DNA of 64,000 nucleotides, taken from contig JAEUHH010000055.1 in the NCBI GenBank assembly GCA_016795505.1, positions 1-64,000 of the forward strand, read 5' to 3'. Position 1 is the first letter of the stretch. Each line of letters starts with the position of its first letter. Origin of the DNA: Verrucomicrobiales bacterium (GTDB lineage: Bacteria; Verrucomicrobiota; Verrucomicrobiia; Verrucomicrobiales; DEV007). Shown here one piece after another: positions 7,028-59,273 of the stretch. The position numbers and the translations under genes are program-made. Under the pieces are notes generated by a model. That model made no database searches, was not told where the DNA came from, and was given only the letters and a program-made list of their open reading frames with translations.

Positions 7028-7843
7028 ATGAATCCCCTTCGTCTCGCCACCCTGCACTTCTCGCTCCTCGGCGTCCTTTTGGCGCCCCTGTCGGGCCAGG
7101 AAGCCGCTCCGCCGCCCGCGCCCAAGCCGATCGAGCCACTCCCAGCCACCGTGCAGGAAAAGATCCGCGAATGGGTGAAAACCCGGAAGCAGATCGCCCA
7201 GGAAGCCGCCGACTGGGAAGCCGAAAAGCGCTCTCTCGCCGACCTCAACGACCTCCGCAAAAAGGAGATCACCCAGATCGACGCACTCATCGCCGCCGCC
7301 GGAGACCGGTTGAAGGACGCCGAAAAACAGCGTGCCGAACTGCTCGCCGAAGAGGAATCCCTCCGCACCTGGCGGGCCTCGATCGAAGAGCGCAACGTCA
7401 AACTGGAGGCCAATCTCCGCGCCCAATTGCCCAAATTCCCCCCGCCGCTGAGGGACAAAGCCGGCGACGCCATCGCCCGGCTCGAGGATCCCCAGCCCGA
7501 CACCCCGCTGCAGAATCGCTACCGCGACGTGCTCGCCATCCTCGGCGAAGTGGGCAATTTCCAGAACACCCTGACCATCGACACCGAGCTGCGCGACTTC
7601 GACGGCGCCCAGGTCGAAGTCGACGTGCTCTACCTCGGCCTTGCCCAGGCCTGGTACGTGGATCGCACCGGTCGACACGCCGGCATGGGCCGCCCCGGTG
7701 CGGAAGGCTGGCAATGGACCGCCGACACCTCCCTCGCCGGCCGCATCCGCGACGCCATCGCCATCCAGCGCAAACTCGCCCCGCCCGCCTTTGTGGGCCT
7801 GCCCTTCACCGCCTCGCCCGCTCCCGCTCCCGCCGCGAAATGA
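7028..7843 (+). CDS. DUF3450-type periplasmic coiled-coil protein of the TonB system
   Basis: The 271-residue protein has a signal peptide (MNPLRLATLHFSLLGVLLAP, cut near SGQEA). A charged coiled-coil segment follows (about residues 45-135, with REWVKTRKQIAQEAADWEAE and SLADLNDLRKKEITQIDALI), then a C-terminal domain containing DVLYLGLAQAWYVDRTGRHAGMG. This matches DUF3450 proteins, which are the first genes of operons coding for TtpC, ExbB, ExbD, TonB and a TPR protein in Vibrio-type TonB2 systems. It is probably periplasmic and supports energy transfer to receptors, but its precise action is not established. The stop codon overlaps the next start (ATGATGA), so the two are translationally coupled. 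Confidence 0.8.
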   Translation: MNPLRLATLHFSLLGVLLAPLSGQEAAPPPAPKPIEPLPATVQEKIREWVKTRKQIAQEAADWEAEKRSLADLNDLRKKEITQIDALIAAAGDRLKDAEKQRAELLAEEESLRTWRASIEERNVKLEANLRAQLPKFPPPLRDKAGDAIARLEDPQPDTPLQNRYRDVLAILGEVGNFQNTLTIDTELRDFDGAQVEVDVLYLGLAQAWYVDRTGRHAGMGRPGAEGWQWTADTSLAGRIRDAIAIQRKLAPPAFVGLPFTASPAPAPAAK

Positions 7844-9312
7844 TGACACGCGATTTTTCCAACCCCTCCCGTTTCCGATCAAACAGGGTTGCATCGCCGA
7901 TCCTACCCTGTTTGATCGGAATCCTCGCCGCACCCCTGCTCGCGGTCTCGCAGGATGCAGCCCCGGCCGATCCCGAGATCGCCGCCTACCAGAAAGCCGC
8001 CGCCACCGTCGAAGCCGATCTGGCCAAGGAACTCGAGGCCCTCGCCGCCCAGCGCGCCACCATCGCCCAGGAAAAGCCGCCGCTCGCACGGGAAACCGCC
8101 ACCATCGCCTCCGAACTCCGCGACAAGCAGCGCCAGTCCGACCTGGCCAACCAGTCGCGCGACGCGCTGATCCACGACCTCAACTCGTTGTCCAACCGCG
8201 TGCGCCTCTGGCGTGACGAACGCAACTACATCGACAGCCTGCTCTCGGAGCACCGCAAGAACTACGAGGCCCAACTCCCGCTGGCCGAGGCCCTCGCGCA
8301 AGCCGAGGCCTTCACCGCCGCCGATGCCGCCGGCGACACGGGATTTGAAGCCAGACTCGCCCTCGCCGAGCAGGCCATCGCCCGCCTCGCCGAAACGACC
8401 GGCCCGCGGGTACGCGAGGGCGAGGCACTGGGACCCGATGGCGTGGCCCGGCCCGGCACTTTCGTCAGCGCCGGTCCGGTGAGCTGGTTCGTCGCGGCCG
8501 ATAGCTCCGTCGCCGGTCTGGTCACTGCCAGCCGTGACCTGCACCCCGAGGTCGTGCCCGGTACCGCCTCGGCTGGCGAAATCCGCTCCCTCGCCGCCGG
8601 TGAGTCGGCGCGGCCGGCTTTCGACCCCACACTCGGCACCGCAGTGGCCCTCGACGAGGCGAACCCCTCCCTGCTGGAGCATTTTCGCGCCGGCGGCCTG
8701 TGGATGTATCCCATCCTGATCATCGCCGCCATCGCCACCCTGGCCGCCATCGTGAAATGGCTGCAACTGGCCCGCATCCGCGACCTGCGCCCCGGCGTGG
8801 TGCGCGAGGTGCTCGCGGGAGTGAATGCCGGCGACCGGGAAAAAGCCGGACGCGTCCTGGCCGGAGTCAAACACCCGGCCCGCGCCCTGCTCGAGCGGGG
8901 CATCGAGGTCGGTGGACGCGTGCCACGCGACGAGGTGGAGGAGGCGCTCTATGAAAGATTTCTCGAGATCCTGCCGCCCCTGCAGCGCGGCCTGCCGCTG
9001 GTGGCGATCGCTTCGGCCACGGCGCCACTGCTTGGCTTGTTGGGCACCGTCACGGGCATGATCCACACCTTCGAGTTGATCAACATCTTCGGCACGGGCG
9101 ACGCCCGTTCCCTGGCCTCGGGCATTTCGGAGGCGCTCATTACCACCGAGTTCGGCCTCGTCGTGGCCATCCCGGCGCTCATCCTCCATGCCCTGCTGAG
9201 CCGCAAGGTCCAGGGCATCCGCTCCACCATGGAACTGACCAGCCTGGCTTTTGTCAATGGATTGAAAGAACCCGCCGGAGTCGCCACCCCGGCCACCGCG
9301 AACCATGGTTGA
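7840..9312 (+). CDS. TtpC-like MotA/TolQ/ExbB proton channel with long periplasmic domain
   Basis: The start ATG at 7840 overlaps the previous stop, giving 490 residues. After a signal peptide (about 1-40, ending LLAVSQDAAPA) comes a coiled-coil periplasmic region (about 45-200). Three membrane segments follow: LWMYPILIIAAIATLAAIVK near 287, GLPLVAIASATAPLLGLLGT near 385, and TTEFGLVVAIPALILHALLS near 435. The last two carry the MotA/TolQ/ExbB signature. TtpC of Vibrio TonB2 systems has this architecture and links ExbBD to TonB. One oddity is that the signal peptide is partly encoded by an interspersed repeat (7877-7917), giving the residues RSNRVASPILPCLIG. The repeat has probably replaced or extended the original leader. 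The gene overlaps the following exbB by 8 bases. Confidence 0.85.
   Translation: MMTRDFSNPSRFRSNRVASPILPCLIGILAAPLLAVSQDAAPADPEIAAYQKAAATVEADLAKELEALAAQRATIAQEKPPLARETATIASELRDKQRQSDLANQSRDALIHDLNSLSNRVRLWRDERNYIDSLLSEHRKNYEAQLPLAEALAQAEAFTAADAAGDTGFEARLALAEQAIARLAETTGPRVREGEALGPDGVARPGTFVSAGPVSWFVAADSSVAGLVTASRDLHPEVVPGTASAGEIRSLAAGESARPAFDPTLGTAVALDEANPSLLEHFRAGGLWMYPILIIAAIATLAAIVKWLQLARIRDLRPGVVREVLAGVNAGDREKAGRVLAGVKHPARALLERGIEVGGRVPRDEVEEALYERFLEILPPLQRGLPLVAIASATAPLLGLLGTVTGMIHTFELINIFGTGDARSLASGISEALITTEFGLVVAIPALILHALLSRKVQGIRSTMELTSLAFVNGLKEPAGVATPATANHG
7877..7917. repeat. Interspersed palindromic repeat, locus B (2 units, inside a CDS)
   Basis: Unit 1 (7877-7895) is GATCAAAC-AGG-GTTGCATC; unit 2 (7899-7917) is GATCCTAC-CCT-GTTTGATC; the linker is GCC. 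The two are in opposite orientation, so with the flanking TTCC and GGAA the outer 17 bases on each side pair perfectly into one long hairpin. The element lies in frame within the signal-peptide codons of the TtpC-like gene. Confidence 0.85.
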
Positions 9313-16848: not shown

Positions 16849-16933
16849 GATCAAACAGGGTCTCATCTCCGATCAAACAGGGTCTCATCTCCGATCAAAC
16901 AGGGTTGCATCGCCGGAGCAACCCTCTTTGATC
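16849..16933. repeat. Interspersed palindromic repeat, locus C (4 units)
   Basis: This is the longest array in the window. Units lie at 16849-16867 and 16871-16889 (both GATCAAAC-AGG-GTCTCATC), 16893-16911 (GATCAAAC-AGG-GTTGCATC) and 16915-16933 (GGAGCAAC-CCT-CTTTGATC, inverted). Linkers are TCC, TCC and GCC, so the period is exactly 22 bp. The array starts 8 bases after the MFS stop codon and ends 53 bases before the AddB start codon. The inverted last unit can pair with any of the first three. Confidence 0.9.
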
Positions 16934-23339: not shown

Positions 23340-23380
23340 GATCGAACCCTGTTTGATCGCCGATCCAACCGGGTTGCATC
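23340..23380. repeat. Interspersed palindromic repeat, locus D (2 units)
   Basis: Unit 1 (23340-23358) is GATCGAAC-CCT-GTTTGATC; unit 2 (23362-23380) is GATCCAAC-CGG-GTTGCATC; linker GCC. The outer flanks are TTTCC and GGAAA, as at other loci. It lies between the convergent addA and a small secreted-protein gene, immediately beside a terminator. Confidence 0.85.
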
Positions 23381-44094: not shown

Positions 44095-44135
44095 GATCGA
44101 ACCCTGTTGGATCGCCGATCAAACCCTGTCTCATC
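44095..44135. repeat. Interspersed palindromic repeat, locus G (2 units)
   Basis: Unit 1 (44095-44113) is GATCGAAC-CCT-GTTGGATC; unit 2 (44117-44135) is GATCAAAC-CCT-GTCTCATC; linker GCC; flanks AATCC and GGAAA. Both units have the same centre orientation. It lies between co-directional genes, 107 bases before tdh. Confidence 0.85.
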
Positions 44136-50657: not shown

Positions 50658-53201
50658 TCACGACTTCGGAGCGGGCGCCGTCACCTCCACCGTGATGGGC
50701 AGGGACAGGGTGGAAAAGCGCGTGTCCGTCTCCTTCGCCTTCGTGGTGGCAGCCTCGGCCGTCTTGGCCGCTTCTGAGGCGAGGTCGCGGCCGCGTTTCA
50801 CTTTGGCTTCGAGATCCGCGACCGTCTTTTTCGCGGCGGCGAGGGCGGCCTCGGCCTCCTTGACCCGCTGGGCCAGGGCCGCCTGATCGGTTCCGGTCGC
50901 GCTGGCGGCATTGGCCTTGGCAGTGTCGAGCGCCTGCTGCGCCGCCGTGACTTGGCGTCCCGCCTCGGCGACCTGCTTCTCAATACCCTGGGTGAGCCCC
51001 TCGAGCCGCGCCTTTTCCGCGGTGGCGGCATCGATCGCGCCCGTATGATAGCGGTATTTGGCCAGGCCGATGCCCTGGAGCACGAACTGGTAACGCCCCG
51101 GCTTGATCGCGAAATTCCCGCTCGGTTTCATCTCAAACGCCAGCACCCCGTCCGTGGCGCCCTCGTTGATCGTGACCGACGGCGGGCTGCGGTGCAGGCC
51201 GGGAAAGCCGAAGGGAATCACCGTCAGCGCGCCTTTTCGCGTACCGAGGTCGGTCACCTTCACGGGAATCTCGATCTTGCCGTTCAGTTCGACCTGCCAG
51301 GTCTTGGCCGGATCGGCCTGGGCCAGAAAAGCCGGCGCCGTCTCGTCGCCCGAGACCGACAGAACCGTCTCCAGATCGAGCCGGGTGCGCACCCGCATGG
51401 CATCGGCAAAAATCACGCCCCAGACCAGCGAGGCGTTGCGCGCCACCCGGACGACTTCCTTGCTACCGACTTTGGCTTTGCCTTGAATCGTGATCGGCCC
51501 CGACCACGCCGGCGCATCGGGCGCGGCCGCCACGGTCAGAAATCCCGTCTCGCTCGCACCACTGAGCACCAGAGGAGCGGCGGTGATGCCCGGCGGCAGC
51601 CCCTCGGCCGTCACCACGATGTCCCCGTCGAAGCCGTCGCGGCGCGGCGCCAGCACCCGGTAGGCGATGGAGCCCCCGCGGCGCACCAGCGGCGCGGCGG
51701 GATAGCCGGCTCGGCCATTCGTGGCTGTCACCTCCTGCTCGGTGGCAGTGAGGAGCTGGAAATCCGGCGTCGCCTCCCGGATGGCGAGCCGGTAGCGGTG
51801 GGCGATGCCGCCGCTGGCGAGATTGTTGAGCAATTTCACCTCATAGACGGCATCGGCGTCGGCCGTGAAGCTCAGCACGGCATCGTTGGTGTCGGCATGG
51901 GTGGCATCCTGGTTGTTGATGCTGAAAAAACTGGGCGGATCGTCATTCTCGGCCACCGCCGTCAGCGTCTCAGCCCCCTGGGCATCCTTCCCGATCTTGC
52001 GGAGCAGGATCACGGTGTCGGTGCTGGCGGTGAGCTGCTCGGAGAGCGACTCGATCCAGTAGGTCACGCCTTTTTTGGCCGAAAAACGATGGGCGTCGCT
52101 GTCGCCATCCGTCTCGAAGCGCCCGGCGATCTCGCAGGGCACCGCAACGGTCTGGAAAGCCGCGTCACCCGGCTGCTCCAGCACCACCGGGGCGGTGGCA
52201 AAGCCGATCCGCGTCGCATTCGATCCGGGCAGGCGATACTCGATCGCCGGCAGGATGGTCTGGCGCGGCGTGTCGGAGGTGAAGGTGAGCGGCGACACCG
52301 GATCGGCCGGCATCGCGATCTCGACCTCGAGAGTCTCCAGGGGCTTGCCATCGAGCGTGAGCCCCTCGCCGGGACTGCCGCCGGGCAGATTCCGACCAAA
52401 CAGGGTCACTCTGGCGGTCTGACCCGGTTGGATCGCGGGCGGAAAGACAAAATCGATCTGCGGCCGGCGGGTCACCTGCATCCGGTAGAAATAGGAGGAG
52501 CCTCCCCCGCGGTAGAGGATGTCGGACAGGCCGATGAAGTAGGTCCCGTCGGCCGGCGCGGTGAAATCCGCCAGCGGATCGCGGCCGAAGGTGTCATTCT
52601 GGCTTTCCAGCTCCCGACCGTCGGCATCGGTCACGATGACGCGGGCGTCGAGGCGGGAGTCGAGCCGCTCCGCCCAGACTTCGACCAGGAGGCGCTCGCC
52701 TTTTTTTGCCGTGATCTTGAACCAGTCGATCCGCTGACCGTCGACGATGCCGCGGACGCCGGTCTCGATCGGCAGTTCCATCGCGGTCTGACGCTTGGAG
52801 ATGTCCCCCGTCTCCACGATCTCCGCCGCGCCAGCCGGCAGCACCAGGAAGGGCCGCGCCGTCGACAGGCCGAAATAGCCGCGCGACCTGACCTCGTAGA
52901 TCCCCGGCGGCAACTCGGCGGGCACGGTGACGGTGAAGCGGTTCTTCTGGATGCGGCCCTCGGGGAAAAAGTCATCCGGCGCGGATCGGACCGGCACGGC
53001 GACGATGCGGGGCTCGTTGAAGCGCAGCCCCTCGATGTCCTCGAGGTGATCGCCGCTCAGCGTGACCTCCAGACTCTCCCCGGCTTTGGCGATGGCCGGC
53101 GAGATGGTGTGCAGATCCGTGTAGGGCAGCTGGGCGCGGCCCGCCACAGGCAAAGCCAGCGCAGCAACACCCGCGGCGAGGCAAAACAGTCGGCTCGTCA
53201 T
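50658..53201 (-). CDS. Secreted PPC-domain protein with C-terminal coiled coil
   Basis: The 847-residue protein has a signal peptide (LFCLAAGVAALALPVAGRAQ). An IPT-like start follows (ISPAIAKAGESLEVTLSGDH), then pre-peptidase C-terminal-type domains (IDWFKITAKKGERLLVEVWA near 150, GTYFIGLSDILYRGGGSSYF near 215, HRFSAKKGVTYWIESLSEQL near 370). A long helical coiled coil closes it (about 720-825), rich in Ala, Glu and Lys. PPC proteins of this layout are encoded beside DUF1549/DUF1553 proteins in Planctomycetes and Verrucomicrobia, as here (4 bases from the next gene), and are probably cell-surface partners. No enzymatic motif was found. Confidence 0.82.
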   Translation of the reverse strand: MTSRLFCLAAGVAALALPVAGRAQLPYTDLHTISPAIAKAGESLEVTLSGDHLEDIEGLRFNEPRIVAVPVRSAPDDFFPEGRIQKNRFTVTVPAELPPGIYEVRSRGYFGLSTARPFLVLPAGAAEIVETGDISKRQTAMELPIETGVRGIVDGQRIDWFKITAKKGERLLVEVWAERLDSRLDARVIVTDADGRELESQNDTFGRDPLADFTAPADGTYFIGLSDILYRGGGSSYFYRMQVTRRPQIDFVFPPAIQPGQTARVTLFGRNLPGGSPGEGLTLDGKPLETLEVEIAMPADPVSPLTFTSDTPRQTILPAIEYRLPGSNATRIGFATAPVVLEQPGDAAFQTVAVPCEIAGRFETDGDSDAHRFSAKKGVTYWIESLSEQLTASTDTVILLRKIGKDAQGAETLTAVAENDDPPSFFSINNQDATHADTNDAVLSFTADADAVYEVKLLNNLASGGIAHRYRLAIREATPDFQLLTATEQEVTATNGRAGYPAAPLVRRGGSIAYRVLAPRRDGFDGDIVVTAEGLPPGITAAPLVLSGASETGFLTVAAAPDAPAWSGPITIQGKAKVGSKEVVRVARNASLVWGVIFADAMRVRTRLDLETVLSVSGDETAPAFLAQADPAKTWQVELNGKIEIPVKVTDLGTRKGALTVIPFGFPGLHRSPPSVTINEGATDGVLAFEMKPSGNFAIKPGRYQFVLQGIGLAKYRYHTGAIDAATAEKARLEGLTQGIEKQVAEAGRQVTAAQQALDTAKANAASATGTDQAALAQRVKEAEAALAAAKKTVADLEAKVKRGRDLASEAAKTAEAATTKAKETDTRFSTLSLPITVEVTAPAPKS

Positions 53202-59210: not shown

Positions 59211-59273
59211 GATCAAACCCTGTCTCATCGCCGATCGAACAGGGTCCCATCGCCGATCAGACCCTGTCCCATC
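59211..59273. repeat. Interspersed palindromic repeat, locus H (3 units)
   Basis: Units are at 59211-59229 (GATCAAAC-CCT-GTCTCATC), 59233-59251 (GATCGAAC-AGG-GTCCCATC) and 59255-59273 (GATCAGAC-CCT-GTCCCATC), linkers GCC and GCC, period 22 bp. The centre alternates CCT, AGG, CCT while the outer arms keep the same direction (GATC on the left, CATC on the right). It starts 17 bases after the GHMP kinase stop. Confidence 0.9.

Follow-up and report, generated by a model that had tools for sequence, protein, structure and literature searches.

The stretch analysed here (the window) comprises 64,000 nucleotides (nt) of contig JAEUHH010000055.1 from a Verrucomicrobiales bacterium (assembly GCA_016795505.1; the 6.55-Mb genome is called G000 below). 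Judged by its domain content, the locus of interest is an operon of the DUF3450-TtpC-ExbB-ExbD-TonB type, with Pfam matches in the order DUF3450, MotA/TolQ/ExbB (twice), ExbD and TonB, followed by TPR genes. The label TtpC is one that we assign by resemblance. At the junction between the DUF3450 gene and the TtpC-like gene lies a two-unit repeat array, which is read in frame as part of a predicted signal peptide:

7028..7843, + strand: DUF3450 gene (Pfam PF11932, E 7.8e-30); its stop TGA at 7841-7843 overlaps the ATG at 7840 as ATGA
7840..9312, + strand: TtpC-like gene, with a periplasmic coiled region and a MotA/TolQ/ExbB domain (Pfam PF01618, E 1.5e-29); used for the start-codon comparison, orthologues at 60-62% identity
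within 7840..9312, + strand: leader of the TtpC-like protein, MMTRDFSNPSRF-RSNRVASPILPCLIG-ILAAPLLAVS, then Q after the predicted cleavage
7877..7895, + strand: unit 1 (>) of the array, GATCAAACAGGGTTGCATC
7899..7917, - strand: unit 2 (<) of the array, 22 bp from unit 1 with spacer GCC; the + strand reads GATCCTACCCTGTTTGATC
7873..7921, no strand: full inverted repeat with outer flanks TTCC...GGAA, a 17-bp stem as RNA
7918..7953, + strand: native hydrophobic core and cleavage region, GILAAPLLAVS then Q, aligning with the leaders of array-free relatives

Because the two genes overlap at ATGA, the array, which begins 37 nt past the A of the ATG at 7840, lies in translated sequence; its in-frame reading is RSNRVASPILPCLI(G), and codons 7876-7920 encode RSNRVASPILPCLIG. 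The arms at 7873-7896 and 7898-7921 are 92% complementary, and the 17-bp stem reaches -30 kcal/mol in G000 (z = -8.2 against shuffled sequence). A preliminary description of this DNA had given the position 7877-7917, the 37-nt offset, the frame, the overlap with DUF3450 and the 17-bp stem, all of which the sequence bears out. It was also right in seeing a pair of repeats; the pair is, however, not a single 41-bp palindrome but consists of 19-bp units on a 22-bp period, in one (><) of four orientations that the family adopts. The same description had the element running into the hydrophobic core, and this holds in part: judged by charge, hydrophobicity and the -3/-1 rule only, the repeat-encoded frame precedes and enters the core of the predicted signal peptide, giving the n-region and the first core residues, whereas the core is mostly native sequence 3' of the array.

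The unit of the family is a 19-bp dyad site, GAT-N3-ACAGGGT-N3-ATC, repeated with a 22-bp period; with flanks the consensus is CCGAT-N3-ACAGGGT-N3-ATCGG, with outer TTCC/GGAA. The half-element occurs 384 times (at most 2 mismatches) in the G000 genome and the reversed pattern 0 times, so the element in the TtpC-like gene is not a chance occurrence and belongs, as had been proposed, to a genome-wide family. Array statistics come from 464-724 kb of G000 and about 100-124 kb from each of four relatives, with genes called by a simple codon-usage model that has no trained start model. In 724 kb of G000 there are 167 units within 2 mismatches (reversed control 0), and pairing is nearly obligate: 164 of the 167 have a partner at 21-23 bp, and 3 are isolated. 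Arrays occur at a density of about 1 per 10 kb. All four dimer orientations are similarly frequent in G000 (15 <<, 13 ><, 10 <> and 10 >>), those unable to form a long stem (>> and <<) being as common as >< and <>, while in G061 nearly all dimers are ><. The variable triplets show no base-pair covariation within or between units in G000. Given this free orientation and lack of covariation, a long stem between units is not the common denominator of the family; what its members have in common is a dyad-symmetric unit and a spacing fixed at roughly two turns of the helix, which would point to recognition of duplex DNA by a protein.

Across 251 genomes of the order, the pattern ACAGGGT-N15-ACCCTGT, which is independent of dialect, had 63-162 matches per genome in genus g1, 92 and 528 in g9, and 1-150 in g2; outside these three genera a single match was found, and the reversed control was near zero. 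No viral contigs carrying a G000-dialect array were found. Between species the flanks differ as dialects: GATC/GATC in G000, GAAC/GTTC in G061 (genus g9), and looser in G001, G002 and G003 (genus g1). With matrices built leaving out the TtpC arrays being scored, these arrays concur with the dialect of their own genome. The G000 array scores 31.6 bits with its own matrix and at most 19.3 with the others, that of G061 31.2 against at most 18.0, and that of G003 11.0 against at most 6.6; the G002 array (10.0) is about tied with the G001 matrix (10.8), within 1 bit.

An in-frame array beside the hydrophobic core is found at the same DUF3450/TtpC junction in four species of two genera (G000, G002, G003 and G061), the TtpC orthologues of G002 and G003 having 60-62% identity; G062, with two degenerate array pieces at this junction, is a fifth carrier if it is counted. 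The TtpC array is absent from the other genera sampled, and the expectation that relatives would lack the element thus holds outside g1 and g9. The further expectation, that such relatives would start at another codon, does not: an ATG overlapping the DUF3450 stop (ATGA or TGATG) is present in all g1 and g9 orthologues examined and in most array-free ones. Since leaders without the array begin at this overlap too but are shorter, the array appears to have lengthened the n-region of a pre-existing signal peptide, and the proposal that the repeat supplied a functional leader is set aside. By charge, hydrophobicity and the -3/-1 rule, cleavage is likely after about 20-26 residues in the array-free relatives shown and after about 35-42 in carriers, the leader of G062 being longer still. 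The orthologues keep the paired DNA site, each in its own dialect, while the variable residues differ, and hence the peptide is not conserved in the absence of the DNA palindrome. The residues that are conserved, NRV..S...PC, mirror the conserved DNA bases of the site and therefore provide no evidence of peptide function.

Arrays also occur in other coding sequences, where their mode of origin appears to be mixed. A degenerate two-unit array at 52394..52434 (contig C51 of G000; no strand) lies in conserved coding sequence, encodes AIQPGQTARVTLFGR, and shows no length change against five array-free relatives, the orthology being less sure in this case as the gene family has several paralogues per genome. 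In a gene that we take to encode a ProA-like glutamate-semialdehyde dehydrogenase (C88:84364-84404) the array is present in G000 only and there are no extra residues at it; the site scores 43.2 in G000 and at most -15.9 in relatives, with a null maximum of -9.3. The lack of length change at these two genes favours formation by substitution there. Almost no gap is seen at the array of a presumed PSD1-type gene, whereas gaps occur at the arrays of an Hsp70 paralogue and of the C21 linker. Several coding arrays are shared with relatives, in position as well as in reading frame. The presumed Hsp70 paralogue has arrays in G000-G003, slightly shifted ones in G061 and G062, and none in G068; at C75 33207 an array lies at the same site in G000 and G002. 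A linker of what we read from the sequence as a beta-lactamase/DUF1343-type gene (C21) has arrays in G000-G003 only. In a second signal-peptide gene (C51 66222-66262, MKIARLLPLLFLLTIPIVQGQIADPTGSDR...) the array covers the cleavage region, and this position is also occupied by arrays in G001, G002 and G003. Separately, the arrays at C51:159217-159257, C39:17955-18017 and C82:65735-65797 probably contain the start codon and n-region of a Tat- or Sec-type leader (e.g. MIGDDTLLHRRRFLASLPGFGLTLLPG; MTLSHRLTRRSLIAAGLTCAF).

Most arrays are intergenic: 37 of 52 in 464 kb of G000, though 85-90% of that sequence is coding. Many lie within tens of bases past a stop codon, and the window holds several examples:

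16849..16933, no strand: four-unit array, 7 nt past the end of the preceding gene
23340..23380, no strand: two-unit array between convergent genes
44095..44135, no strand: two-unit array past a gene end
59211..59273, no strand: three-unit array, 16 nt past a gene end

Genes with a post-stop array in G000 have one within 160 nt of the stop in 14 of 29 orthologue loci of G001, G002, G003 and G061, against 6 of 29 for control genes without one, which we chose ourselves; 4 of the 6 control positives are Lon, common to all four relatives. Positions are partly kept across species, at the ends of PGK, TatD, GspK, FtsX and Lon and at the start of TrpS, where an array just upstream in G000 is matched by arrays in G001, G002 and G061. 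These names, like DnaN, S1, ProA, Hsp70 and PSD1-type, are our own readings of the sequence, and the argument is independent of their exactness. After the FtsX-like gene, an array reaches into the start codon or leader of the next gene at loci L188 (G003), with the start ATG inside the array, and L185 (G002), which reads MILTITLPSLVSDLTLLTRLAVALLL.

We consider it probable that the element in the TtpC-like gene, a pair of units from a clade-specific family of dyad sites, arose at the TtpC junction before the split of g1 and g9 and was tolerated as an extension of the n-region, and that the family consists of paired recognition sites for a DNA-binding protein. The array would have arisen once at the DUF3450/TtpC junction before the two genera separated, and would have become an extension of the older signal peptide that was tolerated rather than beneficial. 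It has stayed in frame as its variable bases and flanks shifted with the dialect of each genome. The sites themselves would be recognized in pairs on duplex DNA by a nucleoid or chromosome protein or by a DNA-uptake receptor, and the family would accordingly behave as paired protein-binding or uptake-type sites rather than as a mobile hairpin. If the sites spread by biased uptake or through an abundant binding protein, a constraint on DNA, unrelated to the proteins, would be rewriting leaders, loops and linkers throughout a clade, with no transposition involved. The orthologous arrays with distinct dialects in sister species would allow a joint shift of site sets to be tested and the cognate protein to be sought.

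Several points weigh against this interpretation. No cognate protein for the arrays has been identified, and translation of the TtpC-like leader and cleavage of its signal peptide are predictions. Orthologous gene ends are only modestly enriched in arrays (14/29 against 6/29). Some copies may be insertions, since carriers of the array have a longer TtpC-like protein, Hsp70 paralogue and C21 linker. The TtpC tree is compatible with a single origin of the array; however, G069 and G074, which have no array, branch within the same region of low resolution, and G074 stands next to G000 (94/87 support, long branch), which may reflect a loss or a second gain. The grouping of G074 (locus L085, genus g18) with G000 on a long branch might also be a transfer or a tree artefact.

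One of two readings within the explanation that we favour, and one we advance tentatively, is that the arrays resemble DNA-uptake signals, being paired sites for a competence receptor that spread by biased uptake and recombination. The hundreds of copies with a strong consensus, species dialects, limitation to a clade, long-stable positions and pairs near gene ends, and the coding copies apparently formed by substitution at two genes, all recall the DNA uptake sequences (DUS) of Neisseria, with their dialects and their pairing at terminators (PMC3630211), and the uptake signal sequences (USS) of Haemophilus and other Pasteurellaceae, for which the length-change comparison of coding copies has been used (PMC1626085). 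In that comparison ProA and 52394 are without a gap, but Hsp70 and C21 have gaps. The ComEC family is present, but equally so in genera without arrays, and hence does not discriminate between the two kinds of genera. Single sites, which are common in DUS and USS, are nearly absent among the G000 arrays (3 of 167 units). Further, USS are denser than the approximately one array per 10 kb found here. It is conceivable, if this tentative reading is correct, that Verrucomicrobiota possess an uptake-type watermark. Its dyad sites would stand in obligate pairs at a 22-bp distance, and sister species would differ in its dialect throughout the genome. By sequence drive, with no transposition, it would remodel the signal peptides, linkers and loops of proteins.

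It is unlikely, in our estimate, that the array is a mobile palindrome of the kind of repetitive extragenic palindromes (REP), their doublets (REPINs) or miniature inverted-repeat transposable elements (MITEs), which a transposase acting in trans inserted, by chance in frame, into the leader. The preliminary description had likewise spoken of a mobile repeat; the hundreds of copies genome-wide agree with this, but mobility is only presumed, and insertion does not account for at least two of the coding arrays (ProA and 52394). A single mobile 41-bp palindrome peculiar to the TtpC-like gene was dropped after the orthologue and genome-wide comparisons. In favour of mobility are the dispersed, mostly intergenic copies, the occurrence of both inverted and direct dimers, the longer leaders of array-bearing TtpC proteins, and the Y1_Tnp genes of the genome (17 Pfam matches). 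Nevertheless, arrays lie at 3 of the 12 Y1_Tnp loci examined, about as expected from array density; the unit carries neither a GTAG nor a CGTC tag; orientation is free, head-to-head dimers not predominating in G000 (in G061 nearly all are ><); and positions are conserved while following the species dialects. Membership in the family of REP elements and REP-associated tyrosine transposases (RAYTs) thus fails on the tag, the Y1 transposase link and orientation. The 17 Y1_Tnp matches of G000 (L039-L050 and others) include several that are truncated or at contig ends, with no array association. MITEs and Rickettsia palindromic elements (RPE) would have terminal inverted repeats and a target-site duplication at precise empty sites; compared with relatives, extra length is found at the Hsp70, C21 and TtpC arrays and none at ProA or 52394.

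Known mobile repeats offer both likenesses and differences. The YPAL/RU-2 repeat of Yersinia contributes to the predicted signal peptide of YPO1552, the leaders of relatives being unrelated to the repeat-bearing one (Delihas 2007, PMC2759123), but it is a 168-bp MITE with a target duplication at one locus, whereas the G000 family is a paired 19-bp site in two genera that tracks dialects. RPE likewise stand in frame in conserved protein genes that tolerate them (Ogata 2000, reviewed in PMC2229807), yet measure 105-146 bp, as opposed to arrays of 22-bp modules of which some formed without length change. GTAG/CGTC REP elements are short palindromic units in dimers and clusters, with an intergenic bias, Verrucomicrobia among their hosts and intragenic copies, including some in Opitutus terrae (PMC3733652); the G000 arrays differ in having no tag, a pair that is free in orientation at a fixed 22 bp, and no Y1 transposase link that we could find. 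We found no description of the present array family in the openly accessible literature searched. Yersinia RU-2 sets a precedent for signal peptides encoded by a repeat; the novelty here is in paired sites that follow the dialect.

An action at the RNA level, as a hairpin stabilizing 3' ends, a terminator or a brake on TtpC translation, is quite improbable. Many arrays do lie just past stop codons, and the stem is strong in G000; against this, the variable bases show no pair covariation, half of the dimers are unable to form a long stem, and there are zero Rfam matches in the window. The stem of the TtpC array is no better than shuffled sequence in G003 (z = -0.55) and is rearranged into a different fold in G061, so the earlier suggestion that the hairpin affects translation is weak. 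Lastly, it is very unlikely that the array is untranslated, with the TtpC start at the in-frame TTG at 7912 inside the element (preferred by the codon-usage caller) or another downstream codon, such as the ATG just past the array in G002 or the GTG in G003, and a merely coincidental ATGA frame: the ATGA start is present and in frame in all five array carriers, most array-free relatives use the same overlap, a TTG start would yield an n-region without positive charge, and G061 has zero in-frame ATG, GTG or TTG codons between its overlap ATG and the hydrophobic core. A true start downstream of the array, which the preliminary description had held in reserve, is accordingly unlikely from the codons available.

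Besides the PSD1-type gene with an array mentioned above, G001-G003, G061 and G062 each encode dozens of paralogues of a cytochrome type (PSD1/DUF1549-like).
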